DNA of 64,000 nt, taken from positions 11,364,001 to 11,428,000 of the forward strand of contig NC_092312.1 of NCBI RefSeq assembly GCF_036785885.1, read 5' to 3'. This stretch comes from Coffea arabica. Lineage: Eukaryota; Streptophyta; Magnoliopsida; Gentianales; Rubiaceae. The notes beneath the pieces are model-generated. The model was given only the letters and a program-made list of their open reading frames with translations. It did no database searches and had not been told where the DNA came from. Below are positions 3,701 to 60,913 of this stretch, piece after piece; position 1 is the first letter of the stretch; each line of letters starts with the position of its first letter. The translations under genes were made by a program, and so were the position numbers.

Positions 3701-6700
3701 TTAATGTATGGAGTAGCATCTAATATCAAGTACGTACTTGACGTTGATTAAGTATACCCTAAATTGGCAATGCAAAAGTTTTTAGTATTTCTTCATCTTA
3801 AAAAGTTATTTCTGCTCTTTAAAATTGATTAATTTCACGAGGATAACTTTTCATGAGCCAAAAAAGAGTCGGATTCTCATACAATTTAAAGCTGTAGTTA
3901 AATCCTTACTAGTATTCCTTTTTGTTCATCTGATTAAAAGGGCATTTTCTATCTTTTGGCTTTAATTTCCAATTCTTTTAAAAAAAAAAAATTGTTCTGT
4001 GTTTTCATGAATTCCATTCTTTCCAGAGTGTTTAATACGAATTTTTGTATTTGAGGTCGCCTCAGAATAATTCCAATTGAAAAAGGCGTAAGATAATTAA
4101 TTAAGCTACCTCCCTTTACGAGGTTATACGAATCAAAGTTAATTACTTATTACCGAGTGCAATAAAAGACAGGCACTCACAACTTTTTGAAGACCCGGAA
4201 AAATCACAAGATTATCATTTCTAATCCTGACAGCACTGGTTGCTTTCTCCAACAATTTTTTGGAGAAAGATCGTGCCTCCTCCAGCTCATATTCGCCTGT
4301 GAAAGCAATATCCGCGGCTCTATATACAGTATATAGTACACTAGTAAGATGTTCACAATTTTGCTCCATATAATCTAGCATGTTTATATCTTGGAGAAAC
4401 CAACAAAAGCAACCTGCAAAAAAGAAATTTAGCACAACTGTCAAATTAAAGTACTTAATTTTGCACTAGCCATGGAATATTGAGGATAATGATCATATTA
4501 ACTCCATACGTGGCTTTAGATCATATCCCTGCATCCGCAGGAGCCGAAATGCCAGTGCGTCCTTGGACAGTTTTTTAACTAGGAGATATGTTTCAGTAGG
4601 TTGTGAGTCTTGATACCTAAAGTCCCTGCAAATTAAAACCGAGGAGTTAATGAAAGGCTAATCAACTATGCAATTCTGCACATATGTACGTTCCAACTTT
4701 GAAAATTATCGGTATATTACCCATAAACTTGTTTCAAGATGTGTTCAATTTCTTCGTTGAAATGCTCCGATAATCCTAGTCTCTGTACATGGTCAACCAT
4801 GAGGAGCTGTGTGAATTCTTCATCCACGGGATACTCGGCTGGTACTGCAAAAAACAGTTCAAATTTCGGTGCCTTAGTAGAACCTACATATTGTTGTCAA
4901 CAGGAGATATCCCTGCTGTAGGTTTGGTGGATGGTGAAAAAGTCTAAGCTAGGTGGTTCGCGTTGTTTCAGCCCTAAAACGTAACGGTAGACGCAAGTTT
5001 ATGAATTTTGGGCAACACTTAAATAGCTATTTTATCCTGCAGGCAGGTAATTACATAATGCTGGCCCAAGGTAGAGTAGCAAAAAAAGTGGATCCATGAA
5101 TTATTTTTCTTTGAGGTCAGTATAGTAGTGAAACAGATAACAAGACAATGATTGCTTCCAGTGGCGAAGCTGTCTAACCTCCAGTGTGGCACCTCTGAAC
5201 AAGAGACTTTAGGTAATTCAAGCACTTCAAATTTCCAGTGGCTATATATGCACTTGCTGTGGCTGAGGGTGACTGGAATAATGAGCCATCTCCACCCAAA
5301 TTCTTCAGTATTTTCTGTTGATCGGCATGATACGCAGAAGGCAAGCTCTCTAGATATGATATGAGTGGTGGATAATACTGGTGTGAATCATCTTCAACGT
5401 CCTCCCTGCAGCCCCAAGCATGTTATACATCTATTGATGCTCAAAAAGTGTGACTGGGGGAATGGACAACATCTAAGAAGATATTTTGAGAAAAAAAAAA
5501 ACAGTACTATAATTACTATGATACAATCAATTTGTGACTTCTAAAAAGATAGTAAAAGGCAATACATGTCCAGGAGCTGTTGCCGCCTGCATAGAACATC
5601 GGCCAAAACAGTCTCTGATCCTTGAGTGAGAGCAAGATCAAGACCTGTTGCTTGTGCAAGTTCAACCATTGCAGGGAAAACAATAACAAACCAGCGTGGA
5701 AGATGATGATAATCTAGTTTGAGGATTATCTCTGCTTTGGATTGGAAGAACTCTAAACCTGCACAACCCCAGGAGGACGATGCGTTATTCAAGTATAAAA
5801 AGAAAAGCTTATATGAACGAAACCAATAGAGATTATACGTGTCACAGCATGCATGGTTCTACTTTTGTGAATGATTATGACAAGTATTCTTGTCGCCATG
5901 AGCTAAAATATACTTTTGCTCATCATCTTTGTTTATATGCATCAACTGTTTTGACGAATCAAGTATTGATAAATGTTAGCATATTTTGTAAAAGATACAC
6001 CTACCATACATGAATGTGTAAGAACTTAACCGTACCTGCCCAACTCCCTGTTTTTATCTTGCTACACTTAGAGACTATCCGTGTTTCCTCTTCCCCAAAC
6101 AGAAAGTTTTTTTTTTTTTTTTTTTTCGAAAAAGTGGATTTTAGTTTTAAAAAGCCATTGTTTGGAGAGTTAAGAAACTTGTGAAAAATGTGTCATGATT
6201 TCTTTTTAAAGATACACACGTGGGATGGTGAATGAATGATGTTAGAATTGTCTATGAGTAGCATATAAGACTGTATATTGTACGCTATTTCGACCCTTGG
6301 GCCAAGAAACAATGTGGAAATTGGAAAATTCAAAATTTTGGAAAAGTTACAGTATATTTAGCGAAGAAAGCCCCAAAAGTTCGACCGATATGACTAGAAA
6401 ACCTGTAAACGCAAGCTAGTACAAAAATCATACTAATGTTATCCACGTATTTGTGTCCTTTTATTGGCAAGTGCTCCCTTCAATAATTGCACTATTGCCA
6501 TGTGAAATGTTTATAATGACCCTGCACATGTGGTATCAACTTTACATATAATTCACTTTTAATAACATATAATCATAAAACAAAATTTTGTAACTTTCAC
6601 ATATAGTGTAAAAAATGATATACAAGATGTAATTTAAATTTTTTTTGGTCAAATTTTAGCCGTAAACCTTCAGGAACGGTTGCAGAAGTTCCTGCACCTC

Positions 6701-7186
6701 CTCGTTAAGTATTTCCTAGTGTACGTACAAAGACCTTAGGTGAGTAAGTAAATGAAAGTTGAGCAGAAGTAAGTACTTCATAGTTGACAGTAAGAACTTG
6801 GATCCTCACAACTAAAATGTTCAAATTCTAGTGTAGCAAATATGGTATTAATAGTCACTACCTTTTCCTATGTTTCCTTCTCCAACATTCCATGTTTTGA
6901 GAGCAACCAAACAAGCAAGAGTTGCCGGAAGAGTATCAATGGTAGGACGACCCTCTGCGTGAGATTCTCCCCAGAACCCTGCGTCATTTTGGTTGTTGAG
7001 TATCCAATCCAAGCAACTCTTGAACATTGGTTGCTTGGAATTTGTGGGGTCTGGGATCATGGCTAACCAAGCTGTGTCATAGGCAGAGGGGGTAATCAAC
7101 GTGTAAATGTCTTGATTGGAGAACATCCCCTTTTTTACCTCAGCGACTAAAGAAAGAATAGAAGATAGGGAGGACTTCATGTTCAT
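786..7186 (-). CDS. TPS-f terpene synthase (geranyllinalool/linalool synthase-like), copy A
   Basis: Twelve exons splice into an 845-residue protein: 7186-6862, 5758-5566, 5405-5179, 4844-4721, 4625-4510, 4413-4181, 3640-3525, 3037-2939, 2828-2613, 1866-1734, 1626-1381 and 1295-786. All introns are GT-AG and phases match throughout. Visible motifs are SAYDTAW (residues 34-40), the metal-binding DDFYD (529-533) and NDTQSYQKE (670-678, across the last intron). The class II DxDD motif is absent; LSKD stands there, before ALAFRLLR. Length, a start with no obvious transit peptide and exon layout fit subfamily TPS-f, whose members ionise GGPP to (E,E)-geranyllinalool or, in some cases, GPP/FPP to linalool/nerolidol. 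Product choice cannot be read from the sequence. A second in-frame ATG lies two codons in (7180). It is a tandem partner of the gene at 13091-18978 and has a longer C-terminal tail. Confidence 0.94.
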
Positions 7187-7275
7187 GGGAAGCTGGGAGA
7201 AGACGATAGAAGCAAAATGTATTTAGTATTAACAAATTTCTGGTTGAGTTGGAATGTTTGCACCATGTCGAGATC

Positions 7276-13090: not shown

Positions 13091-16000
13091 TTAAACAGCA
13101 CTTTCTTTTCCAATTCCGTGAAGAAAATGCTGTGTTGTGTTGACATCCCAACGAGCGGAAATTTGAAGAATCTCTTCCTTTTCTGGTGGAGGCGGTAAAT
13201 AAAGGTCTGAGATTTGAGAATCGAGATCGGGAGGAATGTATACGGCTTTCTTGATATCGTTAAGCAGTTCTTCCTCGGAGTCAAATAGGTTGGTGGAGTT
13301 GAAAAACATGTGAAAGACTTTCATGCAGGATAGATGGAAATGTTTGCATGATTTAGGTATTTCCTCCGGCCCATCATCCATTAGAACGATTTCAAGGAAT
13401 TCTTTAGTCTTCTCCTCCAAAATACCTTTCACATATGCAACGGAGCCATCAATTTTCGCGTTTGGGTTTTCGTCCAAGTGGAGCAAGACCATGTTCATTT
13501 TTCCATCTATTTGCTCCTTCTGCTCAGATGGTCCAACAAAGATTTACTGTTTTATCCCATTCTAAAATAAACCAAGTACCCAAAAAAAAAAAAAAAAAAA
13601 AAAAAAGAGACGAGGGAGACAGAGAGAAGTTTCGTAATTAATTACTTGATAGCTTTGAGTGTCATTCAACAATCGGGCAGCGGACATGAATAATTTCGTG
13701 ATCTTCCCATAATTGTCAGGCTTGAGCTTTTCGATTGGATAATCTTGGCTTAAGAAACAACAAGCTGGGAGAATGATCGTATGTGCTCCAATGGATATCA
13801 TGCCAATGTCCAGATATTCATCAAGGGATGCTCGGTACCCGGTGTCACTCCATGTTCTTTCCACCATCCATGCACCGAATGTTTCTTGCCACTACATGTG
13901 AGTGAATGGAACGTGATTTATATCGTTGTATGTTTGCCATGAGTGAAGGTTTTTTGATAATTACCAAAATAATTCTGGTGCATTTCTAGGAAACTAACAA
14001 AAAAGAGAAGAATGTTCGTAGAAATTAAGCCTTACGATATCTCTAATCCCCTTCAAGAATTTGCTTCCTTCTCGTTGATGGTTGTACTTTCTTGCGATGT
14101 CCATGACCAGGTCACAAAGGGCATCAAAGATAATCTTACTGTGGCCGGTGAGATTTTCACCATTCCATCTGCGAGGATTTAGGCAGCATCTGCATGAGCT
14201 AAGAGCCCAAAAAAAAATGGATTTTTCCGCTATGCATCCCTGAACTTTATAGAGAATCTCAAATTGAGCCCTGAACTTCAATTTGATAACTGTTTTTTTT
14301 TTCCTTTTTGTTTTTATTGTTTGCCTTACATTAGTCCAATAGTTAGAGGGGCTAAAAAGCCTCAATTTATATTGATACTCACATGTTTTACCACAAACTT
14401 CAATCTTGAGACACTTTATACCCTAAAGTATTAATTAATTTATTGTTTCACACTTTGGTTGCATTTAGTGTTTCCAAATGGCTGAACATCTAAATTATCA
14501 TCAAATGTTTGTAGAATATTACGATTTTTTGAAAGAGAATTCTCTCGACAATAAAAAATAAAAATTGCTCACTTTCTCTCAACTAAATTATGAACGACGA
14601 GACTGAAATGGAATAAGTGAAACAATTTAGTGTGCAAAAAGATTGTACAGAAAAATTTGGGGTGCAGCGTTGGAATCAATTAAAGCGCGAGACCGTCTAG
14701 TTTTTAAAACATCCTTAACTATGGCAAAATGCAAGTTAAATTTATTATAGTTAGTGAAAATGAGGTGATATGATATGAATGAGTTGATGATCAGATAGAT
14801 ATCTTGTACATCTTATAATCTAAAGTTTCAATTGAAGGAAGATATAATGTAAGAAATTAGTATAACTGATTTGATAATGAAATAACTAGAAAACATTGAG
14901 TGATCACTTGTCTGCGTGTAAAGAAGAAATTTTAAAATGCATGACATACCGTTGAATGGCCTTAGTCAAGATTTTTAACTCCCTTGTGGAACCTTCCACG
15001 TCGTAAAAGTCATCAGCAACTGTAATGAGAATAGCAATCTTTGCAACAATTAACCTAACAACGGAATCACGAGGCAGGCAACTGCTGGCAGCAACAGCGA
15101 AATAGCAGTAAGCAGTTTTCTCTCGTCCAAACCCTATTTCCCTCAGACCGGATTCCTTGGACCATCTGCATTAATTAGTCCGTAGGCAGCAACATATATA
15201 TGAGATCAAGCATTCATTCATTACTGTTTTGGAGCGATTAAGAATGTATAGAAATGTCTAATGAATTTCAGCTGTACCTTTTTAGTTGTTCTAGTTCCTT
15301 GGCGTAGACCGACTGCCGAAGCTTGTAATTTTCATTAGCAAGTTGCACCATCTTTTCATGTTGAAGATGGAATAACCTACAAGTGTTTGTAATGCTCAAT
15401 GGGTCATTGATTTTTCTTTTAATTACGACAATGCAAAAAAATGAATCCTATTCTTTAAATTTTTTTTTTTTGTTATAGGCAGATTAAAATGATTAATGTT
15501 CTACTTCGTTTTTTTTTTTTTTTTTTTTTGGCGTTTCAATGGGACTCTCTCTTGATTATAAAGCTTTTGTAATAGAGTACTACGCGCATCAGCACACTAT
15601 GCTAAATCAATTTGTAAAACAATTGGTGCTGGATGATTTTCAGCAATTTTAGTAGTAAAATTTACTCTGTTTTTTTAGAAAGAAAATGATTTGTATTGCT
15701 TAATTATACCTGTAGAAGGATGCCTTTCCAATCCACAAGGGGCTGATTTTATTCTCTTCGATCCACATCCTCTGATCAAGTTGATCTAGCCGAGTAATCC
15801 ATGGAAGAGTCAACTCATGCTTAATCTATTTCAAAAACATAAAGACCAAGTCAAGTTTTGCCCAGTAAGAAATGGCAATAAGAATCATTTTAATCAATAT
15901 AGTGTTAATTTACTAAAATGGTCTAAGTATCTGAAAAATTCACAAATTGAACACATGGAACTTGATCATTGAATATTGATTAGTCTATGCACTTCATTCT

Positions 16001-18978
16001 CAATTCAATTTCAGCCAATAGTTCTCAATTCTCATCACATAATAAACGATCAGTTGAAAGCATTATGAACATTTAGCTTTCAATGTTTAAAACGAAGACA
16101 AAAAATTCTAAGCACTTGCCAAGAATCATATATGATATCCAAAGAGTATTATTGTATAATTCAAGAATTAAAGTACACATAATGTACACAAAAGTGGATA
16201 AGTCACAAGCGCGCTCAAGCATTCTTGTCTTCTTGGCATTGAGGTTTCATTTTCCATGATTAATTGCAACAATTACGATCCCTTCCACTTTATCATTCAA
16301 TCTAACCCTCTCCCATGATTAATTACACTTCTAAGTTCTAATTGTGGTATAATTAAAGCACTAATTATATATTAAAAAAATCATTATAAACTGCTGAAAA
16401 AATGCACGGGTGACCTGCTCTGGCGTAAGAATTATATATCCTTCCGTTCTTTTCTAAATCTTTCCCTTACAAAACCAAAAAAAAAAAGTTAAATGAATTA
16501 TCTGTTGGAAACAAGACGTGGACTTACTAGTTTATGTAGACCGGGGAAAATTACAAGATCATCGTCCTTACAGCTGAAACTGATCGATTTCTCCAGCAAT
16601 TTCCTAGAAAATGCGCGTGCCTCCTCGAGTTCATATTCCCTCCTGAACATAACGTCCGTTGCTCTATAGACATTATATAATACGCTAGTAAGTTGTTCAC
16701 AATTTTGTTCTATATACTCGAGGGTATCAGCATGCTGAAGGAACCAACAAAAGCAACCTGCAATAGGAAATAAGCAGGTATTTATTCCTTTTTTTAGGTG
16801 CTATTTCCTTTATTTAAATAGGAAGACAACGGAGATTTGATTAATTAATTCATTAATTTAAGGGCGTACTTGGCTTAACATCATGGCCTTGCATCCTAAG
16901 AAGCCGAAAAGCCAGCGCGTCCTTGTATAGTTTTGCAGCCACAAGACGCCTGTTGGCTGGCTCTAAGTCTTGTTTCCTGAGGTTCCTGGAAATTTTCCAT
17001 GAGAGGATCAAATTCGATCGATCATAACTTAGAAAATGCTCAAATATATGGTTTAGCCGTGAAAAAAAAAATTAATTGTACATGGTTATTACTTGTAAAC
17101 TAGCTTTAGGATGTCTTCAATCTCCTCTTCGAAGTGCTCAGCCAATCCTAATCTTTGTACATGATCAACCAAGCACAGCTTTATCAATTCTTCGTCCAGG
17201 GGATACTCAGCGGGCACTGCTAAAGAAAATGTTAATAGCAGTTTGATTAGAGGTTTTACTTAGACTTCTTGATACTATCTATATATACATTACATACACA
17301 ACATTGAGATATAGGGATCAGTTTCAAAATAGAATTATGAACCTCCATTAGGACATTTTTGAACGAGGAACTCAAGGTATTCCAAGCATTTCGAACTTCC
17401 AGTTCTCAAGTATGCGCTAGCTGTGGCAGATGGTGACTGGAGAATTGAGCCGTCTCCACTTAGGTGCTTCATTATGTTTTGTTCATCAACATGATACGTA
17501 GGGGGCAAGCTCTCTAGATACCATAGCAGCGATGGAATTTTTTGCTGTGAATAATCTACAGGGTTCTCCATGCAAGTCCTAAAAATCAATTACAAGTCAT
17601 GAGTATTGCAAAATTAAGTTCCCTTTGCATTGCATTTTTTGTGCTTTCTTCCCTTTAAATACTACTGTAGCATTTTCTTAAAAAGCCTTTATGCATGACG
17701 AAGAGGTGATTTGGAGATCGTTTGGAAACTTTCACAAAAATGCAAACCAAAGGTGTCTAAGCTATTTGTTATCCTGTAGAAGATTTAGGCAAATTAATGA
17801 CGAATTTATGTGCGTTGTTAATGACGTATTCATAAGCTACAAAAACAATACAAAAAAAAAAAAAAATTGAAGCATCACATTTTCAGAATTTGTTGCCTCT
17901 GATGGAAAAGGTCGGATAACAGCCTCTTGGATCGTTGGGAGAAAACAAGATCAAGACCAGCTGCTTGAGCCAGTTCAGTCATTGCTGGGAGAACACTGGC
18001 AAACCACCGTGGAAGATGATGACGGTGTTGTTCGAGAATTACCTCAGCGGTGGTATGAATGAATGCTAACCCTACAGCATAGAAGCAAGCAAATGGCATT
18101 TAACATATTGAAAAGCATCACATATCAAAAGTCATAGTATGGGACAAATACATTTTGGTATTGGTTGTATGATTACCATGTTTTATACATGATTTAGTGT
18201 ATATTTGTATATAATTTTGTTGTACGCATAAACTCTATTTACAAAAACCAACATAATATATGAATAAACCTATTTATATAAATGTACACCAAATTTTAAA
18301 CTAGTACAATAACTACACTATACTATTCCAAAAGCCAATTTTCCCTGCTTGAATTGAATCCCTCAAGAGCCATGCATGTTTTATCGGGGCTAAAGTCACA
18401 CCTTCGAAGCATTAAACACTTGTATTGTCAACAATGAAACTTGTACGAGGTGCATATATAGGATGAATGAGAGTGAATTTGGCTAAAGTCCTCCTAGATG
18501 TAACCTGAAATAGAATGCTACACTAGATTTCCTATGACTTGTCATAAAAAGAAGGAAAATCCTCCTAGATGTAACCTAAAATAGAATGGTACACTAAATT
18601 TTGGAATTTATGTGGTGCGATGAGGTATTAACCAGTTAAATAGCAAAATATCTACTTGCCTCTTGCTATGTTTTCTTCTCCGAGATTCCATGTTTTCAGG
18701 GCAACCATGCAAGCAAGAGTCGCTGGAAGAGTATCGATGGTAGGAAGGCCCTCTGCATAAGATTCTCCCCAGAACCCTCCTGCATTCTGGTTGTTGAGTA
18801 CCCAATTCAGGCAACTCTCGAACTTTGGTTTGTCAACTTGTGTAGGGTCTGGAATCATGGTCAACCAGGCCGTGTCATAGGCAGATGCGGAAACCAAGTG
18901 GTGAATATCTTGATTCAAAAACATCTCTTTCTTGATCTCATAGACTAGAGATTCAACCGAAGAAAATGAGGTTTTCAT
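13091..18978 (-). CDS. TPS-f terpene synthase (geranyllinalool/linalool synthase-like), copy B
   Basis: Twelve exons encode 818 residues: 18978-18660, 18071-17879, 17578-17343, 17216-17093, 16985-16870, 16757-16528, 15825-15710, 15376-15278, 15165-14950, 14168-14036, 13891-13646 and 13519-13091. Eight exons are the same length as in copy A; exons 1, 3, 6 and 12 differ. SAYDTAW (32-38), DDFYD (529-533) and NDTQSYQKE (670-678) are intact; no DxDD is seen. Intron 1 starts with GC (AG|GCAAGT), and only this donor keeps the frame open. The ATG at 18978 is chosen because an upstream in-frame ATG at 19056 is only about 22 bp from the TATA box, so it is probably not transcribed. The C-terminus is 27 residues shorter than in copy A. 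Function is expected to be conversion of GGPP (or a shorter diphosphate) to an acyclic tertiary alcohol. Confidence 0.94.
18489..18597. repeat. Short direct repeat in intron 1 of copy B
   Basis: The phrase TCCTCCTAGATGTAACCT followed by RAAATAGAATG and TACACTA occurs at 18489-18527 and again at 18559-18597. It is about 39 bp, spaced 70 bp, and close to the GC splice donor. Confidence 0.7.
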
Positions 18979-19078
18979 GTTTTTGGATGCTGGAGACAGA
19001 TGGGAGAAGGATAGGAGGAGCAAAACTTTTGGAATGCAAGTTATTGGTGAGTGCAATCATGATGCTCCCCAAGAAAGC

Positions 19079-23483: not shown

Positions 23484-23859
23484 TAAAACAAAGGGAAAAT
23501 GCCCGTTTTCATCCCCAAACTTTGGGGTAAGGACACATTTCATCCCTCAACTTTTGGACTCGACACATTTGATATCTGAATTAATAATTTTTTATCAATG
23601 TTATCCTTAAACGGCAATTTTGCCAATTTTTAAACGGACCGTTAAGTATTCTTTTTTGTCTTTGTCTGAACAAAAACAAAATCAGGTGAGTATCCAGCTG
23701 TCTCCACTTTCCCTTGTATCAAACCAAGCTGAACTTGATTTGCTCTATTCTAACCCTTTTCTTTCACTTCGGCAACAACAAAATCGCATTCCTCCAAGAC
23801 TTTAGAAGATCGAAGAAGCTGACCTGCTGCCCTGTGATTAAGTAAGAAGGTGGAGAAAT

Positions 23860-24819
23860 ATGTCGGTGCGAAAGAAAGAATTGGAAAATCGTGCACCCCC
23901 AAATTATGGTAAGCTGTGCAGGTTCAGTATTTGTTAATTAAAGTGTTAATAATGAAAAGTTTGAGCTTTTTTGGCATTGCATGTAGATGTGGTCTGTTTG
24001 TGATGTTTTATTGACTTCGTTTGGGTCCAGCTACAAAGTTTGACATTTTTTTTTGAATATGATACATATGGGCCATTTTCCCCTGTTTTGTGGATGTAAT
24101 CTTGTTAATGTTTGGTCGACATTGTTTGAAAAGATTAATTTTTTAAATGGTTAGAACATATATGCTTGAATAATAAACTTGTGGTCCCTTTTGGATGGTT
24201 AAGTTATAATAAAAAGTATGATTCTGTTAAACTTGTGGTCCCTTTTATTGACTTCGTTTGGGTCCAACTACAAAGTTTGACATTTTTTTTTAAATATGAT
24301 ACATATGGGCCATTTTCCCCTGTTTTGTGGATGTAATCTTGTTAATGTTTGGTCGACATTGTTTGAAAAGATTAATTTTTTTAATGGTTAGAACATATGG
24401 TTTATCCGATTCTGTTAGAATATGAAAGTTATGGTTTGTTTATTTATTCAGTATTTGATATATACAATTTTTTTTAATTATCAGAACAAGGTAGCTCACT
24501 GATTACACTAAGATGTCACTGTGGGGGGTTGATTTTTTACACTCCTCAACCACATTATCAGGGTGGAGATGTATGTGTCCTTGATTACGTTGAGAGTATA
24601 AGTTTAAGTATTTTTGAAGTGGATAGATTGATTGAGGCTGCTGGTGTCTTTGGTCACAAAGTGTACTATGGTTGGGAGAACAATAGCTTTAAAAGGATAG
24701 ACAATAGTAGAGAATTGCATGGATATATTCAGAGGACTACTGGTTCAATTAGGGAAATTATCTTGTACCTTGAAGTCTCATTCCATGAAATTCCGGTACA
24801 AGATAATTTCCCTAATTGA
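23860..24819 (+). pseudogene. Truncated MULE transposase 5' end, left arm
   Basis: Exon 1 (23860-23908) begins MSVRKKELENR. A GT-AG intron (23909-24484, phase 1) leads to exon 2, which reads ITLRCHCGGLIFYTPQ and then GGDVCVLDY. This is the PB1-like N-terminal region (GG..VYFDY type) common to plant MuDR-family transposases. The frame crosses the central spacer, runs into the opposite arm and stops at 24817-24819. No zinc-finger or DDE catalytic part is present, so it cannot be an active transposase. Confidence 0.75.
24006..24398 (+). repeat. Direct repeat inside the MULE arm intron
   Basis: A block of about 155 bp starting TTTTATTGACTTCGTTTGGG occurs at 24006-24161 and 24243-24398 within the intron. 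It is mirrored in the right arm (about 25166-25560). The duplication therefore predates formation of the palindrome. Confidence 0.8.
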
Positions 24820-25706
24820 ACCAGTAGTCCTCTGAATATATCCATGCAATTCTCTACTATTGTCTATCCTTTTAAAGCTATTGTTCTCCCAACCATAGTA
24901 CACTTTGTGACCAAAGACATCAGCAGCCTCAATCAATCTATCCACTTCAAAAATACTTAAACTTATACTCTCAACGTAATCAAGGACACATACATCTCCA
25001 CCCTGATAATGTGGTTGAGGAGTGTAAAAAATCAACCCCCCACAGTGACAGCTTAGTGTAATCAGTGAGCTACCTTGTTCTGATAATTAAAAAAAATTGT
25101 ATATATCAAATACTGAATAAATAAACAAACCATAACTTTCATATTCTAACAGAATCGGATAAACCATATGTTCTAACCATTAAAAAAAATTAATCTTTTC
25201 AAACAATGTCGACCAAACATTAACAAGATTACATCCACAAAACAGGGGAAAATGGCCCATATGTATCATATTTAAAAAAAAAATGTCAAACTTTGTAGTT
25301 GGACCCAAACGAAGTCAATAAAAGGGACCACAAGTTTAACAGAATCATACTTTTTATTATAACTTAACCATCCAAAAGGGACCACAAGTTTATTATTCAA
25401 GCATATATGTTCTAACCATTTAAAAAATTAATCTTTTCAAACAATGTCGACCAAACATTAACAAGATTACATCCACAAAACAGGGGAAAATGGCCCATAT
25501 GTATCATATTCAAAAAAAAATGTCAAACTTTGTAGCTGGACCCAAACGAAGTCAATAAAACATCACAAACAGACCACATCTACATGCAATGCCAAAAAAG
25601 CTCAAACTTTTCATTATTAACACTTTAATTAACAAATACTGAACCTGGACAGCTTACCATAATTTGGGGGTGCACGATTTTCCAATTCTTTCTTTCGCAC
25701 CGACAT
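24778..25706 (-). pseudogene. Truncated MULE transposase 5' end, right arm
   Basis: Mirror copy of the left-arm gene: exon 1 is 25706-25658 and exon 2 starts at 25079 after an intact AG acceptor. The few substitutions include Arg to Ser before CHCGG and Gly to Asp at AAGVFG. The frame crosses the spacer and stops at 24778. The two copies converge on the centre of the palindrome. Confidence 0.75.
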
Positions 25707-26082
25707 ATTTCTCCACCTTCTTACTTAATCACAGGGCAGCAGGTCAGCTTCTTCGATCTTCTAAAGTCTTGGAGGAATGCGATTTTGTTGTTGCCGAAGT
25801 GAAAGAAAAGGGTTAGAATAGAGCAAATCAAGTTCAGCTTGGTTTCGTACAAGGGAAAGTGGAGACAGTTGGATACTCACCTGATTTTGTTTTTATTCAG
25901 ACAAAGACAAAAAAGAATACTTAATGGTCCGTTTAAAAATTGGCAAAATTACCGTTTGAGGATAACATTGGTAAAAAATTATTAATTCAGACATCAAATG
26001 TATCGAGTCCAAAAGTTGAGGGACGAAATGTGTTCTTACCCCAAAGTTTGAGGATGAAAACGGGTATTTTCCCTAAAACAAA

Positions 26083-29647: not shown

Positions 29648-30509
29648 CTACACTTCCACTACCTCGTCCAAGTTCTCTTTGACTGCAGCACAAACTTTTG
29701 CTAGGAAATCGGACCAATTCCTGCACACATATGAGAAGTCAAGCCACCATTACATCAGCGTATAGGTGATTTTTCTCTGTTTTGTTTTCCTTCTGCATTC
29801 CAAGCAAATTCAGATCGAGGGTTTTGAGAAGAAATTTATCAACACGTACATCTATTCAAGAATCCAGTCATGTACAAGACATAACATAATTGACAATTAA
29901 TGGATCAAATTCTGTATGTACTTACCCCGTAGATGTATCAAACGTTATTGCAATCCTTTCTTTTGCCTCATGGAGGGCTCGATTAAACCTTTCCAGATCT
30001 TCTGTGGAGCAGCTTCTCCAAGCCTTAATCTTAAGCTCATTAGGTTTTACGTCACAATAGATCGGGATAACCTTCTTGCTTGAGTCTATCATGAGGGACA
30101 ATTCATGACAGCAGAAGTAGGATTCACAAAAATGGGGTGAAAACACGGGAATTCCAACCTTAGATTTGAGCACTGCCATGTCCAAGTTCTTCTTCAATTC
30201 ATCTCCAGGTTTCAAGTTCTTGCAGTCCAAGAATGGCTGGAGCCCGAGACATTTGAGGTAATCATAGATCAACAATGCAACGTTTCTTTTTGTGTCGATC
30301 CCTCGGTGGCTGATGAATGCATCGAACCCTTGTTGCCTAGTTTTTTCGATTTGGTTTTGGCACTGAAAAATTTGATAGCATGTGTTCTTGCGCGATGATA
30401 AACGATGCATGGCATCAAAATATTCAAGAGGAGCTTTGTTTGCCCTATTTTGGCGTGTTTTAGGAGTTAAGATTTTAGGAGAAGGGCATCCTACGTAGGA
30501 ATAACGCAT
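29648..30509 (-). CDS. TIR-only protein (putative NADase), copy 1
   Basis: Two exons (30509-29926 and 29720-29648, GT-AG, phase 2) encode 218 residues. A TIR domain fills residues about 60-210: GFDAFISHRGIDTKRN at the first strand, FLDCKNLKPGD in the BB loop, and CCHELSLM with the expected catalytic Glu at 136. The C-terminus, TFDTSTG then NWSDFL across the intron, matches the conserved plant TIR-only group that includes Brachypodium BdTIR. Those proteins cleave NAD+ to cyclic-ADPR isomers in immune signalling. There is no NB-ARC or LRR. The N-terminal 60 residues show no recognisable domain. A paralogue lies at 59883-60832. Confidence 0.88.
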
Positions 30510-33374: not shown

Positions 33375-34103
33375 TGATAAGCAACCCTAGGAGAAAACCC
33401 TCCTAGATCCTCCCAACCTTGTAATTATCAGAGTTGGATCTTTTCTCCCAATAGAAATTGAACTCGATTGTTCTCATGAACTCAAGACTTCTGACACACA
33501 AAGGTAATCAGCAACCTTAAGCAAATAATGATGGATGAAGAGACACCACGATTAGGGAACAAGCTAATCGATAAAGTCAGATTTGAATCATAAGCAATGA
33601 ACTCAAGAATTCAAGAGTAAGTTCGATTAAGAACTTGAAGGAAAATTCCTCACGATTTCTGGTTGTAATAATCTCCTTTCACTCATATAATAGGTGCCTT
33701 TTATAGGCTAAAACTAGGGCAAATCCGGCCCACATAAACCTGGAATAGGAATTCAGTCCGCATAAAGAGCCAACTCTTTAAGACTTCCCGATAAGGCCCA
33801 ATAAGTAATAAAAATACTCAACGACTAACAACTACTAAACTAGGCAGTTTTAAAACAACTACCAACTAAGCTAATAAGTATGAGATCATTCTTTCACTTC
33901 AAATGTACAAGTGAACAAGGTAACTTCATGGTCCATCAAATTTTCAAACTTAGCTTGCTCCTTGCTTATATGGTGAATGATCAAGGCTCGTAAAGCTTCC
34001 TTCACCTTTTTGAATCTTGATCTTGTCATCGGACCACCAATGTTGATCAAAGGATCCTTGACCCAAGGCTGAAGTTATTTATTGCACGCCCGTATCCGCA
34101 TCA
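33375..34103 (-). repeat. LTR (3' LTR of the minus-strand element)
   Basis: 729 bp starting TGATAAGCAACCC and ending CGCATCA on the plus strand. Its partner at 37603-38331 is the same length. On the minus strand a purine run, GAGGAAAGAGGGAA, directly precedes it (the polypurine tract). Confidence 0.92.
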
Positions 34104-35346
34104 TTCCCTCTTTCCTCGAAAAGACTCGTTCTCGAATCTTCAAAGTCTCCTCTTGAAAGTGATTTGTCCACAAATCGATGGTGCACTTAAAGGACAGCAA
34201 TGTTGGAAATAGATGAATGACTACGAGCCATGTTGCATGTCGTTTGGTCAGCTTCGGGAAGCTCTCAAACAAAGACATGCGCCAAGGTAGGAAAGAGCTT
34301 GTGTAAGGCGTGTGAAAATCCCAAGTGGCAATCCAAAACTCTCTAATTAGCCTTTGGTCATGAATCTTCACATTGATACCTTGATTGTGCAAAGGTGTAA
34401 AATCTAGCACTAGTTGACATTGATTTGAATCATCTTGCATGGATAAATTGGGAGCAACTTGTTGCATGGATGAGCCACTAAACAACTTGTGGAGGACAGC
34501 TTTGGGATCTTGCGTGACACATAATTTCTCATCTTCCAACATATAAGGTAGCAAACAATTGAAGTCCACTTCATGAGGGTTACTCGAACTAGCACAAGTT
34601 GAAGTTGACAATTTGAGCACTTAGCCACCAGCTTTTGGCTGTGTGAATAAGCATGAAAGATCACCACCTTTAGTTGGAATAAACACGAAATCAGGTTGTA
34701 AGTCTTTAATCAAAACTGGAAAATTTTGGACAGCTTTACAACCTACAAAAACAAAATAACCTTCAACTGGAAACAAATTAGAAATTGGGTAAAGAAGTAA
34801 TGGTTCATCATCAATTAAATGGTAAGAAGGTATAGAACAAATTTTAAGTGTGAATAGTCCTTTTGCCACTTCATTATTCCTTCCACCAATTGATTCAACT
34901 TGAGAAGGCATTGCTAGTCTTTTACACTTTCCTTCAAAATCTGCATAAGAAATACAAGTGTTAGGATAGAAATTATACTCAAAAAAAGGTAAAGATGATG
35001 AATGAACCATACGTAGTAAATGAGAGTCAAAGTTTGAAATTCTCCCTTCATGGTTGGTTTGAATTGATTCCCCTTTGGTATGGAAAGATTTGAATTGAAA
35101 TTGTTCCATGAGGTGATCCCAAATAGATTTAATTTCTAAAATACAAACTCCATGAAAACTAGTGAATTGTACAAATGACGTTGAAATGGAGCATGGTATG
35201 ATTAATTTCACTTGACTTTGCTTAATCTGTACAAATGAAGAAACACTAAATAAAGCAAAGGTAAGTTCATTAGAAAAACAATAAGCCCTCACATTTTTGC
35301 TCAAAATTAGCTCACTTTCTCTTTTTTCTTCCTTTTTACCACTCAT
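34075..35346 (-). CDS. Unidentified ORF downstream of gag in the LTR element
   Basis: One reading frame from ATG 35346 (MSGKKEEKRESE) continues to a stop at 34075-34077 inside the LTR, broken once by TAA at 34621-34623. In all it holds about 420 codons. Its open frame overlaps the end of gag in the -1 frame, so a frameshift could have joined them. No protease, RT, RNase H or integrase motif is visible. Near the end it reads REFWIATWDFHTPY and LWTNHFQEETL. I do not recognise it; it replaces the usual pol. Confidence 0.6.
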
Positions 35347-35372
35347 CTCATCAGATTTTTCTATCTCTTTAT

Positions 35373-36290
35373 CTAGCTTAACGCTCTCGATTGTTTCTCA
35401 TTATCAACCTCCTCAACAAATGGTTCAATAGGATGAGATACTCCTTTGTTGGGAATAGGGTCTGCTACCCCCTTCTTAGAAAACTCACTTTGATAGCATC
35501 CATTTGACTCCATTTGTTTTTGGTGTAGAAGACGTTGATATGTCTCCCAAAATGACTCCGCATGAGGTGGTTCAACTCTAGATTTAGTCCTAGAAAATAT
35601 TAAATGAACCTTCTTGTCATCTCTTGTATAAACCGGCTTTAAAGAGGTAGATTGCATGGAACCCCTTCCCTTGAGAGATTCGTTCTCTCGATGGAGTCGA
35701 TTGTACAAGTCCGTAGTATAATGGGAGGGTACAAATCGTTTTCTCATCACTTGCTTCATTTCAGTCCAAGTGTCAATCGATTGTTCCCTATTTCTCCTCC
35801 TTGTGGCACATACTTGCTCCCACCAAATAGATGCATAATCTTGAAATTCAATAGCTGCAAATTTCACAATTTTCTCTTCAGAGTAGTTGTGGATTTTAAA
35901 CACTTGCTCAACTCGTCTAACCCAATCCAAGTAAGATTCAGGATCATTTTTCCTATGAAAGGTAGGCATATTGGTCTTGATGGAACCAAGATTGTCATCG
36001 GTTCTCCTAGGTCGATCTTGACCTTCTCTCGCTTCCCTCTGGCTTTTCCTTGATCGAAAGGAGACGTTAGAATAATACCCCTCATCATCCTCATCATGAT
36101 CAGCACTCTGAACACTCGAAACCCTATTGTGTGTATCTCCGGTACCTCGCATCGCAATGGCAGCCAACCGGTCGGATAATTGTGTCATCACCAATTCATG
36201 TCTCTCCGTTTGTTTTTGAAGAGTTTGGAGCACCAGTTTGAGTGACACGTCGGTCTCAGACGGTTCGGGCATCTTCCCCTCTTGAGACAT
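35373..36290 (-). CDS. Retrotransposon gag protein
   Basis: ATG at 36290 gives about 305 residues. After an N-terminal helical region (TLQKQTERHELVMTQLSDRL) and an acidic/Arg linker comes the retrotransposon-gag core, with NDPESYLDWVRRVEQVF, KFAAIEFQDYASIWWEQ and MKQVMRKRFVP. This is the typical Ty3-type capsid fold. No CCHC zinc knuckle is seen after it. It ends at TAG 35373-35375. Confidence 0.88.
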   Translation of the reverse strand: MSQEGKMPEPSETDVSLKLVLQTLQKQTERHELVMTQLSDRLAAIAMRGTGDTHNRVSSVQSADHDEDDEGYYSNVSFRSRKSQREAREGQDRPRRTDDNLGSIKTNMPTFHRKNDPESYLDWVRRVEQVFKIHNYSEEKIVKFAAIEFQDYASIWWEQVCATRRRNREQSIDTWTEMKQVMRKRFVPSHYTTDLYNRLHRENESLKGRGSMQSTSLKPVYTRDDKKVHLIFSRTKSRVEPPHAESFWETYQRLLHQKQMESNGCYQSEFSKKGVADPIPNKGVSHPIEPFVEEVDNEKQSRALS

Positions 36291-36769
36291 ATTGTCCAAC
36301 CTGCAAAATAAGTGTATCCTAATCTACCTTGCAAGCACTCGTGTATCACTCAAGGAATCACACTCACTCTCAATTTTCCTTCTTGAAGTTCTTAAAACAA
36401 CTCAAACTCTAAAAAATTTCAGAATTAATGACTCTATAAGTAAGTAACAAGACACAAAGCAGAATTTTGTAATCCTAGAAAAAAAAACTCTACCCAAAGC
36501 TGGAATTTTTTTTTGAGCTGCTATTTTGCTGAGTTTTTGGTCAGTATTTTGGAGGGTAAGTGGTGCTTTTGGGGTGTTCAAATAATGTACGAATCAGTCC
36601 TCAAATTTCAGAAAAATCGGCTCGCAAAGACTAGCTCAACCGATTTTAGAAACTCAAGAATTTAAAGGCGGTTTGGCTAAGGTGTTTGTGGTGGTTTAGG
36701 TTTGGTTTCGGAAACTGATTTAGGGGTGTTTGGAGTCTGGTTAGGTCATTTGTGGTCGTTGGAATTCAA

Positions 36770-36905
36770 TTAAAATTGGAGACTCAAGAATTGGAAACCA
36801 ATCAAGATTTGGAGACTCAAACTTTGGGAAACCAATCAAGATTTCGAGACTAATCAAGAATTGGAAATCAATCAAGAATTGAAAACTCAAGATTTGGGAA
36901 ACTTG
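36770..36905. repeat. Degenerate tandem repeat in the LTR-element leader
   Basis: Units of the form GGAGACTCAAGAATTGGAAACCAATCAAGATT recur about four times with drift. They lie between the primer site and gag. Confidence 0.6.
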
Positions 36906-37404
36906 ATTTTCTTTGTGTGAGAGCCGATTCCTTCTCTTCTTCCTTTTTTTTCTCCTTTTTTTTGTTTCGGCTCTTCAAGGAACACAAATTTAGGTCACAC
37001 CAACAAGTTCAAGAAAAATGGATGAAAGGTTATGCAAATTTCAAGAAGACCTTAGTTCTTGATTTATTGTTCAAGAACTTTCAAAACAAGACTTGGTGGT
37101 TCAAGAACTTCAAGAATTTTGTTTAAGGAGTTCAAGAACTTCCCCATATTATGTTGTGGTGTCTAGGATTTGCAAGAATAATAACCAATACTCAAGAAAT
37201 AGGTAAAACAGAATTTCAACAATACTCAAAAAAAAATTTCAGCAATACTCTAGCAACTTGGACACAAACAATATAAGATACGTGACTCTTTTTTTTTTTT
37301 TTTTAAACCCTAACAACTCAAACACAAGTATAACAGACTCAAGAAAGAAATTTGGACAGAAAAACACAAAAAGACAACACCCAAACAGATTTTTTTTTAC
37401 TTGA

Positions 37405-37508
37405 ATGAACAGTAACGTGAACAGTACGCTACAGTACGATGAACAATATTCGGTACAGTAACGATGAATAGTAATCGCTACAGTACGATGAACAGTAATC
37501 GGTACAGT
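37405..37508. repeat. Minisatellite in the LTR-element leader
   Basis: Variants of CAGTACGATGAACAGTAATCGGTA are repeated about four times, next to the primer-binding end of the element. Confidence 0.7.
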
Positions 37509-37602
37509 ATTTATTTATTTATTTTTTGACAAAAGACACAAACGAACAAGATATGAACAACTTCAATTAAAAGAGAATTAACTTGATGCTCTGATTACCA
37601 AC

Positions 37603-38331
37603 TGATGAGCAACCCTAGGGGAAGACCCTCCTAGACCCTCCCAACTTTGTAATTATCAGAGTTGAATTTTTTCTTCCAATAGAAATTGAACTCGATTGTT
37701 CTCATGAACTCAAGACCTCTGACACACAAAGGTAATCAGCAACTTTAAGCAAATAATGATGGATGAAGAGACACCACGATTAGGGAACAAGTTCATCGAT
37801 AAAGTCAGATTTGAATTCTAAACAATTAACTCAAGAATTCAAGAGTAAGTTCGATTAAGAACTTGAAGGAAAATTTCTTACGATTTCTGGTTGTAATAAT
37901 CTCCTTTCACTCATACAATAGGTGTCTTTTATAGGTTAAAACTAGGGCAAATTCGACCCACATAAACCTGGAATAGGAATTCGGTCCGCATAAAGAGCCA
38001 GCTCTTTAAGGCTTCCCGATAAGGTCCAATAAGTAATAAAAATACTCAACGACTAACAACTACTAAACTAGGCAGTCTTAAAACAACTACCAACTAAGCT
38101 AACAAGTATGAGATCATTCTTTCACTTCAAATGTACAAGTGAACAAGGTAACTTCATGGTCCATCAAATCTTCAAACTTAGCTTGCTCCTTACTTATATG
38201 GTGAATGATCAAGGCTCGTAAAGTTTCCTTCACCTTCTTGGATCTTGATTTTGTCATCGGAATACCAATGTTGATCAAAGGATCCTTGACTCAAGGCTGA
38301 AGTTATTTATTACACACCCGTATCCGCATCA
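37603..38331 (-). repeat. LTR (5' LTR of the minus-strand element)
   Basis: 729 bp, TGATGAGCAACCC to CGCATCA. The primer-binding site abuts it at 37602 on the minus strand, which fixes it as the 5' LTR. It carries the CGACT target repeat at 38332-38336. Confidence 0.92.
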
Positions 38332-39091: not shown

Positions 39092-42000
39092 ATGAATATT
39101 ATCAGCTGGAACTGCCGAGAGCTTGGGAACCCTCGGACAGTTCGCGAGGTCTGTAACATAGCCAGATAGAAAGATCCCAACATTTTGTTTCTCTGTGAAA
39201 CTAAATGTACAAGTAGAGTAGTTGAACGGCTAAAATTGAAAATTAACTTCTTTGGAATCTCCGTTAATGCTGATGGTCGCTCTGGTAGGCTTGCCTTTCT
39301 TTGGGCTAAAGATATCGATGTCTCGCTTCTAGGGATCTCCCATCGATATATTGATGCAGTTGTCCGCGTTAACCCCGACACGCCACATTGGCGTATAACT
39401 GGAGTATATGAAGAGCCAGACACATCTCTTAGGCGTGAGGCATGGGCCAAGTTTAGGACTTTAAAGCATCGTTCACAGCTGCCCTGGCTTTATTTAGGGG
39501 ACTTCAATGAAATATTGGATCCTGACGAGTTCGATGGAAGTGACCCTCGGCCACAATGGCAAATCGATCAATTCCGAGGTGCTCTCGCTCACTGTGACCT
39601 CTCCGATCTCGATTTTACTGGCCATCACTATACCTGGTTTCGAAACACTAGTTCTCACCTTGCAGCTAAAGCCCGCCTTGATCGTGCCTGTGCTAACCCT
39701 GCCTGGTGCTTAATGTTCCTATGGTTTTCTGTGCAACATTTGTTTTCCCATGTGTCCGACTATAGGCCTATCATGGTAGCAGCTACCGATCGACCCTCTG
39801 ATTTTTCTACAAGGAGAAGGCGTCCTTTTCGCTTCGAAGCCATATGGTTAAAATCTGAGAATTGTGCTCGTGTTATCCAACGCCAATGGAATTCTAGCAA
39901 GGAGGTTCCCCAAAATCTTAACAACTACAAGCTGGGTTTGATGCACTGGAGCAAAGCTTCATTCGGTAATGTCAAATTGGAGATGGAGCGGCTCAAGGAG
40001 CGCATCGATATCCTTCAACAAGGTCCTATTTCGGATACTTCAAAGTTTGAAACTGGGAATCTTATGCAAAAACTTGACGAGCTTCTAGACTTAGAAAATG
40101 TGAAATGGAAATAGTGGGCTAAGCAGCATTGGTATAAATCTGGGGACAGGAACACCTCCTTCTTCCATGCCTATGCGTCCAAAAGGCGAGATACTAACAC
40201 GATCAAAGGTCTTCATAACTCGGATGGTTCATGGTGTGAAAACCCGAAGGACATCGAGGCAATTATCCTTGATCACCTTGGCAAACTTTTTGCCCATTCA
40301 AATCAGTCCGAGAGGGATATACAAGCTGTCATAGAACGTATCCGAGTCAAGGTAACACCAGAGATGAATAGGCGCCTTTTCGAGACTTTCATGGCAAAAG
40401 AGGTAACAAAAGCACTCTCCCAAATGCATCCTTGCAAATCCCCTGGTCCTGACGGCTTTAGCCCTATCTTTTTTCAGAAATTCTGGAATATTGTTGGTCC
40501 TGATATTACTCATTTTATCTTACTGTTTTTGAACGAATGCGTCTTTGATAGATCGATTAACTTTACGCACATTGTTTTAATTCCAAAATGCAAGAATCCT
40601 TGTAATGTCTCCCAATTTAAGCCAATTAGCCTTTGCAATGTCATATACAAACTTTCCTCTAAAGTGCTAGCAAATAGGATTAAGTCTTTGTTACCAAACA
40701 TTATTTTCACATTCCAATCTGCTTTCATCCCAGGACGGTTGATCACTGATAATGTTTTAGTTTCATATGAAATGCATCACTTCATTAAATCTAGGTCCAG
40801 AGGGGGTGATGGCTTGATGTCGATCAAGTTAGACATGAGTAAAGCTTTTGACAGAGTCGAATGGAATTTCCTTATTCAAGTAATGTATGCTCTTGGTTTT
40901 GATGCCCGTTTTGTCTTTCGGATCCAAAAATGCATTTCTTTAGTCTCCTTCTCGTTCATTCTCAATGGGGTCCAAGTTGGGTTTTTATTACCACAAAGGG
41001 GGCTCAGGCAAGGTGACCCTTTTTCACCTTACCTATTTATTATTTGTGGAGAGGCCTTTTCTTGTCTCCTGCAGGAATCCACAAGATGTGGCAAGTTGAA
41101 AGGGATTACAATAAATGCACAAGCTCCGTCAATATCGCATCTTCTATTTGCTGACGATACCCTTCTCTTTGGACGTGCCTCTCTGGAAGAAGCCGTATCC
41201 TTCCATCAGGTCATCCAACTATACGAAAGAGCTTATGGGCAGTGTGTTAACTTTGATAAATCTGCAATTACTTTTAGCCCCAACGTAGCACAGGATGTTA
41301 GAACTACGATTTCCCAACTCCTATAGGTGCCAATAATTGAATCGCACGAGAAATATTTGGGGCTCCCGTCAGTGATTGGGAGGTCCAAGTCTCAGATCTT
41401 TGCGTCTATAAAAGACCGTGTCTGACAGCGTTTGCAGGGCTGGAAGGAGAAGAGCTTGTCTCGGGCTGATAAGGAAGTACTGCTTAAAGCTGTTGTCCAA
41501 GCCATTCTTACGTATACTATGTCGTGTTTTCTCCTCCCTGACAACATCCTAAGGGACATCCAATCCATGGCTGCCGACTTCTGGTGGGGTGATCAGTCAG
41601 AGACACATAAGACACATTGGGTCAACTGGAATAGATTATGTATGCCCAAAAATCAAGGTGGATTAGGCTTTCGGAACATGAAAGCCTTCAACTATGCTAT
41701 GCTAGGGAAACAAGCTTGGAGGATTCTTACTACACCAACACCCCTTCTTCATCATGTCCTCAAAGCCAAATATTTTCCCACGACGGATTTTCTCTACGCG
41801 ACGTTGGGATATCGTCCTTCATTCACATGGCGAGGAATCCTTGAGGGATGGAAAGCCCTAAACATTGGTTGCAGATTACGAGTAGGCTCCGGGGGCTCTA
41901 TTCGTATCTGGCATGATCGTTGGCTACCCCGTCCTAAATCCTTCTGAATCTGCTCTCCTCCCCGGGTATTGAGTTATCATGCTCGTGTTACAGATCTTAT

Positions 42001-43231
42001 CCATCAAGACCTCCGCAGCTGGAACACCGCTTTTATTGACGGAATATTCTGGGAAGAGGAAGTTTCTTTGATTAAGAGCTTGCCTCTTTCCAAACACTTG
42101 ATGAACGATAGATGGATTGGGCACTTTACACAGAATGGCAAGTTCTCGGTTCGAAGCGCTTATCATGCAATAATGGATTCTGACATCCTTGATGTTGGTC
42201 AGACAGCGCAAGCATCCTCTAGTGCTGGGAACGATCCAGTTTGGAAGAAGCTCTGGTCATTTGATGTCCCGAACAAGAAGAAGCATTTCCTCTGGCGTAT
42301 TTGTCACAACTCCCTCCCCACACCAGACAATCTCCAAAAACGAAGGATACCTGTCGAGAACATATGTTTGGTGTGCAATGAACCATCTGGTGGCTTAACC
42401 CATCTTCTTTTCGAATGTCCTGTCTCGGTTCAAATCTGGGCGCTTAGCTTCCTGGCGAGGAAAATCCGGGCTTGTTGTCAACCCTTTGCAGCTGCTTGGG
42501 TACGGGAGATTCTTGGAAACTTACTACCTAAAGACTGCGAGGATTTTGCTGTTCTCAGTTATGAAATCTGGAACAACAAAAATGACGCTCTCTTCAATGG
42601 TAGGATTCAGGATCCCTTAACTTTGGTTAGCTATGCTCTTAATAGTCAGACAGCCTTTCGTGAGGCAAACCTCCAAGCTGCGCCCGTCCCGTCACCAAGG
42701 CCTTCTTCCCTTTGGACTCCGCCGCGCGCCCCCCACTTCAAAGTCAACTTTGATGCCTTTGTATCCACAATTCACCGTGTTGTTAGGATTGGTGTGGTTA
42801 TTCGTGACTGTGAGGGCCAGTTTATTGCCGGCTTATTCAGGAAAATCCCAATCCAAACTAGTGCAGACCTGGCAGAGGCTCTTGCTGCAAGGGAGGCGGT
42901 ATCGCTGGCTAGAACTTTGATGATTCCAAGCTTCATACTTGAGGGGGACGCGTCCTCAGTGGTTAAGCAGATTAGTAGCTCAGATGAGATTCTCTCTGAC
43001 CTCGGCACTGTTATAGAGGACATCCGTCTTTCCTTGCTCAATCTACCCATTTTGAATGTAGTCTGGACACCTAGAGAAGCAAATAGGGTTGCGCATAGTT
43101 TAGCACAGTTTGCTAGATCTTCCAGTCTCTCTGAATCTCTCTGGAACTTCCCCCGACTTTTGCCAAATAGTTGGTGCTGGACGATATCCAGCAATCTAAT
43201 TAATACAACCTCTTTTACTTTTTCAAAAAAA
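39092..43231 (+). pseudogene. LINE ORF2 (endonuclease, reverse transcriptase, RNase H), five stops
   Basis: One uninterrupted phase from ATG 39092 to the poly(A). An AP-endonuclease domain (SWNCRE, LYLGDFNEIL, ARLDRA, SDYRPI) is followed by a reverse transcriptase (LDMSKAFDRVEW, QRGLRQGDPFSP, LLFADDTLLF at about 41138-41168). Next come a zf-RVT region (about 42220-42420) and a C-terminal RNase H (NFDAFV, EALAAREA, EGDASSV). In-frame stops sit at 39167, 40112, 41324, 41423 and 41945; each can come from one transition. There are no frameshifts before the RNase H. The APE/RT/RNase H set is that of plant L1 LINEs. Confidence 0.92.
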
Positions 43232-43302
43232 GAGAATGGGAATGGCGTACTAGTACAGCAAGAAGTAGGAAAGGCACACATATGATATGGTATCTACAAA
43301 CT

Positions 43303-46041: not shown

Positions 46042-46476
46042 GGGTAAAAAATAAAAAAGCCCTCTGTGGTAAATCTAATACACAGAAAAGTTCTCCATGG
46101 TTTTAAAATATACAACACGACCCCTCATTCTTTGAACTAAATTGTAAATGTGACAGAATCCATTAAACTTAACGGAAATGAACAAAACGACCAAAATATC
46201 CTGATATAATTAAGCAAAAGACAGCTCAAAAAAATCATTTGTTTTATTCTTTAAATAGAGAGAATTGAGGGTTAACGGGTAGAAAAGGTATATTTGATAA
46301 AAATTAGGTATAAATTTTTTTTTTTGGTTTCAATAAGTCATTTCAGTTAAGTTCAACGGATTTCGTCACCTTTACAATTTAGTTCAAAACATGAGGTGTC
46401 GTGTTATATATTTTGAAACCATACGAGACTTTTCTGTGTATTAGACTTACCACAGGGTTTTTTTTGTTTTTTACCC
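46042..46476. mobile_element. MULE-type MITE with ~85-bp inverted ends
   Basis: The left GGGTAAAAAATAAAAAAGCCCTC and the right inverse GGGTAAAAAACAAAAAAAACCCTG start long inverted repeats. These include CTAATACACAGAAAAG on both sides. The flanks TTTTATTAT (46033-46041) and TTTTATCAT (46477-46485) match at 8 of 9 bases. Confidence 0.75.
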
Positions 46477-49498: not shown

Positions 49499-49970
49499 GG
49501 GCAAATTTCACTTTACCCCCCTATGGTTTAACTTTTTTTTACATAATCCTCCTATGATTTTAAAAGCTATACATAACCCCTTTATGGTTTGAATTAAAAT
49601 GTTAACATGACGGGAATGACCATTCGTAACGGAGTCATTTAAAATATTAAAAATACCCTCATGTAAAGTTGAAAATTATTTATTAACCAAAGGGGGTTAT
49701 ATGTATATTTTGAAAACTATAAGGGGGTTATATGATAAAGTATTAAATCATAAGGGGGTTATATAGTAAAATATAAAAGCATATGGGGTTAATGTGTCAG
49801 GTATTTATAAGGGCAATTTTGACATTTTTAGAAGTTCCGTTACGAGTGACTATCTCTGTCACTTTGACACTTTAATTTAAACCATGAGGAGGTTATGTAT
49901 AACTTTTGAAACTATATGGGGATTATGTAAAAAAAGGCTAAATTATAGGGGGGTAAAATGTAATTTGCCC
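49499..49970. mobile_element. MULE-type MITE in intron 4 of the CBL-like gene
   Basis: The ends are GGGCAAATTTCACTTTACCCCCC and the inverted GGGCAAATTACATTTTACCCCCC. A perfect 9-bp repeat, AAAAGAAAA, flanks it (49490-49498 and 49971-49979). The interior is non-coding. Confidence 0.85.
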
Positions 49971-60832: not shown

Positions 60833-60913
60833 GGCCCCAAGAAGAAGAAAGCTGAAAATGTGTAAAGTTTGATGGTAAATTTGTAATGAAGATTCTTGGG
60901 TAAGCTAGGCTAG

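Follow-up and report, generated by a model that had tools for sequence, protein, structure and literature searches.

A palindromic MULE derivative of Coffea arabica: a layout close to that of maize Mu killer and a probable origin by gap repair

The standard natural case of a transposon family silenced by its own rearranged copy is Mu killer, whose single origin was in a laboratory line of maize. As described in the published accounts, each half of Mu killer consists of TIRA followed by 1.298 kb reaching into mudrA (PMC3440606), and the locus gives a 2.4-kb hairpin RNA and 26-nt siRNA, MuDR becoming methylated and silenced (PMC2563033). Skibbe and colleagues report that silencing plants make antisense transcripts initiated within Mu killer; these transcripts are the proposed agent, the long hairpin is left as a possible contributor, and the mudrA transcript is said to have persisted in 3 of 13 Mu killer carriers (PMC3440606).

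A palindrome of 2.6 kb (2581 bp, positions 23493-26073), located in a 64,000-nucleotide stretch of Coffea arabica DNA that is referred to below as the window, can be regarded from its sequence as a close structural counterpart of Mu killer, and as such it is an inverted-duplication MULE derivative, that is, an element of a known kind. As described for Mu killer, a terminal inverted repeat (TIR) together with the 5' part of the transposase gene is present as an inverted duplicate with arms of about 1.3 kb, and the interior is gone (PMC3440606). This likeness, which the first-pass annotation had drawn, turns out to be close, with arms of 1.28 kb here as against TIRA plus 1.298 kb in each half of Mu killer as given in that source (PMC3440606). 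Both TIRs of Mu killer are described as coming from the mudrA end, whereas the two ends differ by 6% here; likewise, its centre is said to have resisted sequencing, whereas a spacer of 25 bp can be read in the coffee element (PMC3440606). The 9-bp duplication is intact here, whereas the flanks contained in the two Mu killer junction primers (PMC3440606) share no 9 bases, a weak reading that is made from the primers and the terminal sequence of Mu. Finally, silencing is demonstrated for Mu killer, whose class is defined by transcription and silencing, whereas the coffee element is known from sequence alone and is thus not classed as Mu killer. What the coffee element adds is a centre that can be read through, a duplication that has survived and indications of how the structure formed. 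A survey of the literature by titles and abstract openings of the papers listed, with most subscription journals outside its coverage and hence no proof of absence, returned no Mu-killer-type MULE recognised outside maize.

Two other kinds of element are comparable. Foldback MULEs, with FARE1 in Arabidopsis, MuTAnT in Medicago and Tm1 in root-knot nematodes as examples, are described as being filled nearly completely by inverted repeats (PMC4486113, PMC3169594), and the inverted repeats of the coffee element take up 2556 of its 2581 bp, as a foldback MULE family requires. A MULE-type duplication is common to both, with a length of 9 bp reported for Tm1 (PMC3169594). However, FARE1, MuTAnT and Tm1 are presented in these sources as multi-copy families, whereas the long inverted repeat here appears to be a recent copy of a transposase gene. 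The element also resembles single-copy Pack-TIRs, whose interior is described as being replaced through template switches at sites of microhomology, with no transposition involved (PMC8277862); these animal elements are reported to be filled with host DNA, whereas the filler here would be the element's own inverted 5' half (PMC8277862). The reading that we favour, with a probability of about 0.65, is that interrupted gap repair in place exchanged the interior of a now defective MULE for an inverted copy of the element's 5' half, this figure covering origin and structure and excluding silencing.

Anatomy and ancestry of the palindrome

The palindrome consists of two inverted arms flanking a central spacer, with an exact duplication directly outside (Table 1), which confirms both the palindrome with its 25-bp spacer and the perfect 9-bp repeat that had been noted before. 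When the arms are aligned, 19 of 1279 columns differ, namely 17 substitutions and 2 one-base indels in homopolymers. The chance of nine identical bases at two fixed places is about 8e-6 at the base composition of the window, and the duplication records that some element was inserted at this site. Large palindromes are a recognised weak point of assembly, and an assembly or library artefact in the form of a fold-back chimera is the explanation that this weakness brings to mind; such a chimera predicts equal arms and no target-site duplication, whereas the ends are 6% different, the flanks are unlike and the 9-bp duplication is exact, so that an artefact appears very improbable. An arrangement of two MULEs, head to head or nested, was also considered and rejected, as the centre holds neither a TIR end nor a second duplication.

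Table 1. Positions of the features of the palindrome within the window, in order of their first base
Feature	Position	Strand	Length	Basis or remark
Target-site duplication, left copy, TAAAACAAA	23484..23492	+	9 bp	Identical to 26074-26082; adjoins the element
Left arm	23493..24769	+	1277 bp	Alignment against the right arm
Outer left arm, read as 5' TIR	23493..23720	+	228 bp	Change-point in divergence; putative TIR
Exon 1, left copy (ATG to donor)	23860..23908	+		Frame and canonical donor
Intron 1, left copy	23909..24484	+		Canonical GT...AG
Intron duplication, left arm	24006..24398	+	156 bp	24006-24161 versus 24243-24398, 98%
Exon 2 start, left copy	24485..24769	+		Frame crosses the spacer into the inverted copy; stop at 24817-24819
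TTGTACC, inner end of left arm	24763..24769	+		Complementary to GGTACAA at 24795-24801
Spacer	24770..24794	+	25 bp	Continues exon 2 of the left copy
Right arm, inverted	24795..26073	-	1279 bp	Arm alignment
Exon 2 start, right copy	24795..25079	-		Two amino-acid changes against the left copy, then the spacer
Intron 1, right copy	25080..25657	-		Donor context and frame; coordinates via arm alignment
Exon 1, right copy	25658..25706	-		Donor context and frame; coordinates via arm alignment
Outer right arm, taken as 3' TIR of the parent	25846..26073	-	228 bp	Change-point in divergence; putative TIR
Target-site duplication, right copy, TAAAACAAA	26074..26082	+	9 bp	Directly outside the element

A listing over the whole window of inverted pairs with a minimum length of 60 nt and arms no more than 8000 apart gave nine, five of them within the palindrome and the other four with arms of 65-164 nt at 77-86% identity. 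Two smaller inverted-repeat structures, possibly miniature elements, lie at 46047-46472 (arms of 135 nt, 83%) and 49499-49970 (arms of 164 nt, 77%). Further repeats of the window are an LTR retrotransposon at 33375-38331, in which direct repeats of 729 bp, 94.5% alike, surround a minus-strand gag-bearing frame, and a LINE-type element at 39170-43285 (+), which is spread over several frames with endonuclease, reverse transcriptase, zf-RVT and RNase H-like domains. Among the genes, 786-7222 (-) and 13091-19056 (-) are tandem copies, 67-86% alike in pieces; exon 6848-7219 of the former, the only part of that gene taken into the comparison, matches solved structures of plant diterpene synthases (best 3e-19). 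A TIR domain of the immune-receptor type is present in two reading frames at 29922-30509 (-) and 60335-60904 (-), which are about 69% alike.

Within each arm, the TIR is accompanied by exon 1, an intron whose splice sites are intact and the first part of exon 2; from the left end inward, a leader is followed by the ATG at 23860, exon 1, the intron and exon 2. The 156-bp duplication within the intron is mirrored in the right arm at 25166-25560 and, being common to both arms, predates the palindrome. Splicing of the left arm gives 127 codons, the final few of which come from the spacer and the inverted copy, and a full transposase cannot be made from the element. One might consider the resulting 127-residue N-terminal fragment as a protein repressor that poisons transposase complexes, given its open frame and intact splice sites. 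Nevertheless, this fragment ends before the region that corresponds to PF03108 in a homologue (P0009, see below), its terminal residues derive from the inverted copy, and a single copy gives no measure of selection; we consider such a role hardly credible.

The ancestry of the arms was traced from the reading frame of exon 2 (P0001) through protein homologues (P0002-P0011). The first search with P0001 led to the acceptance of P0002 and P0003 out of seven candidates, the use of P0002 as query added P0004, and a profile of these four proteins returned 10 proteins out of 2269 candidates, seven of them new. Searches of this kind reach proteins of 0.55-1.75 times the query length, and full-length transposases are therefore outside their reach. 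PF03108, the DNA-binding domain of MuDR-family transposases, was recognised in P0009 (2.3e-12) and P0011 (3.1e-6), whilst P0001 itself matched nothing in Pfam or among solved structures and showed no match to P0009 in direct comparison, and P0004 and P0006/P0008 had no match in Pfam. The link from P0001 to MuDR thus runs via P0002 and P0004, overlapping neighbours that span both parts: both overlap P0009, with 31 of 47 residues identical between P0002 and P0009. Together with the long inverted ends and the 9-bp duplication, these linking homologues identify the source of the palindrome as a MULE, and the first-pass assignment to that superfamily, together with its placing of the transposase 5' end in the arms, is upheld, with the qualification that the chain of homologues to PF03108 is indirect. 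Patterns for relatives fitted five stretches in viral contigs and 27 in prokaryote genomes, none of which was confirmed. AlphaFold2 models of four sequences (mean pLDDT 44) have a strand-helix order resembling ubiquitin-like folds, a resemblance too weak to use; a PB1-like domain is a speculative idea.

Uneven divergence, the central junction and probable formation in place

The arms had been described as nearly identical throughout, which holds for the interior, where 3 of 1049 columns differ, and fails for the outer ends up to 23720, where 14 of 228 do. These counts correspond to 6.1% (3.4-10.3) outside and 0.29% (0.06-0.84) inside, and none of 2000 shuffles produced a change-point as strong as that at 23720. 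Long terminal inverted repeats are a feature of MULEs; since the inverted repeat of this element continues to its centre, the limit of the TIRs is taken from the change-point, and the resulting length of about 228 bp is similar to the approximately 215 bp given for the TIRs of maize Mu elements (PMC3440606). The 14 end differences may point to two separate TIRs rather than two derived from the transposase-gene end. The simplest reading of the sequence takes the ends as the 5' and 3' TIRs that the parent itself possessed, the interior being, on this view, an inverted copy made later from the 5' half.

Transitions account for 13 of the 14 outer differences (nine at CHH, three at CG and one at CHG sites), so that decay of methylated ends after formation could yield the same pattern. 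This is the basis of the alternative that an old palindrome was copied evenly and that either its outer 228 bp diverged faster, through deamination in methylated TIRs, or conversion between the arms kept the interior alike; that TIRs are targeted by methylation is indeed described (PMC4858842). However, the step in divergence is sharp, CHH rather than CG sites account for 9 of the 13 transitions, and a source of hairpin siRNA should, as we infer, be methylated inside as well, all of which makes an evenly copied old palindrome unlikely. If a mutation rate of 7e-9 per site and generation is applied, the interior would be roughly 0.2 million generations old and the ends a few million. The former figure would be an underestimate if the arms had undergone conversion.

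The centre of the palindrome provides a second line of evidence. The spacer continues exon 2, and homologues that span this point also have SFHEI. In the six spanning homologues, the residue after the spacer is V in all cases and the next one is Q or H in five, the exception being P0010 with L. The codons predicted from these homologues are GTNCAN, and the window has G GTA CAA, the chance of GTNCA being about 0.003. Since GGTACAA after the spacer is the reverse complement of TTGTACC, with four of its bases constrained by the homologues, the two copies were probably joined at a microhomology of up to 7 nt, which is the expected trace of interrupted gap repair. We infer the parental bases at the junction, and likewise the reading of the TIRs, from protein homologues at 56-78% identity.

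Taken together, the step in divergence at 228 bp and the probable microhomology at the junction point to repair, for which a sequence of events can be proposed, its route and the identity of the right TIR being deduced steps. A parent MULE, whose TIRs of about 228 bp would already have differed by some 6%, would be cut or excised. Its left end would then copy the element from the 5' TIR as far as exon 2, whilst the right end, carrying the 3' TIR, would invade the 5' TIR, to which it is homologous, in the opposite orientation and copy that half as well. A join between the newly made 3' ends through the 7-nt complementarity TTGTACC/GGTACAA would finally set aside 25 nt of exon 2 as the spacer; alternatively, a single strand might snap back at the same motif, with an identical product. 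The 9-bp duplication would be inherited from the element that was already present at the site.

A MULE remodelled in place keeps its old duplication, and the 9-bp repeat is therefore no proof of movement as a unit. The earlier description of the palindrome as transposed, that is, inserted as one unit, is consequently not supported, the duplication being retained equally after gap repair in place; nor is the suggestion that it could be mobile and self-spreading, since the divergence step and the probable junction microhomology favour repair. It is nevertheless conceivable that a foldback MULE formed elsewhere and was carried here by transposase acting in trans, making the 9-bp duplication upon arrival. 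Both ends and the duplication are intact, foldback MULE families such as FARE1, MuTAnT (PMC4486113) and Tm1 (PMC3169594) are documented in the literature, and repair could still have given rise to the palindrome at an earlier site before such a move. On the other hand, the window contains no second copy of the arms, only matches of 35 bp or less, and remodelling in place predicts the duplication equally well, for which reasons we view arrival as a unit as a tentative possibility.

Hairpin RNA and possible silencing

RNA folding of the whole element predicts a near-perfect hairpin in which 1268 of 1275 pairs join the arms, with a minimum free energy of -2235 kcal/mol, whereas two stretches of similar length in the flanks give -538 and -617 kcal/mol; any palindrome of this kind folds so, and the prediction is thus no sign of expression. 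RNA running through the element, whether driven from a promoter in a TIR, from another one inside the element or from a neighbour, would form a duplex of about 1.27 kb, from which Dicer-like enzymes could cut siRNA against the TIR, leader, exon 1, intron 1 and the start of exon 2 of intact relatives. Promoters are reported within the TIRs of maize Mu elements (PMC3440606), so that two inward promoters are conceivable here. The sole instance of TATA[AT]A in the left arm is at 24459, within the intron, with none in the TIR or leader. Inside the element, AATAAA occurs five times on the plus and six times on the minus strand, and these sites could shorten transcripts; both observations count against silencing. 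On this analysis, present silencing of its own family by the palindrome is possible but doubtful. Quite improbable is the more elaborate scheme of a mobile, self-limiting silencer, in which transposase of relatives would move the palindrome, inward TIRs would express the hairpin and the resulting siRNA would silence those relatives.

Nearly the same layout in another plant would suggest that derivatives of this type originate recurrently, by way of ordinary gap repair. With a readable centre and parts of differing age, the origin of the coffee element can be tested against its relatives, and its structure raises the question of whether transposon families that carry such hairpins stay quiet.
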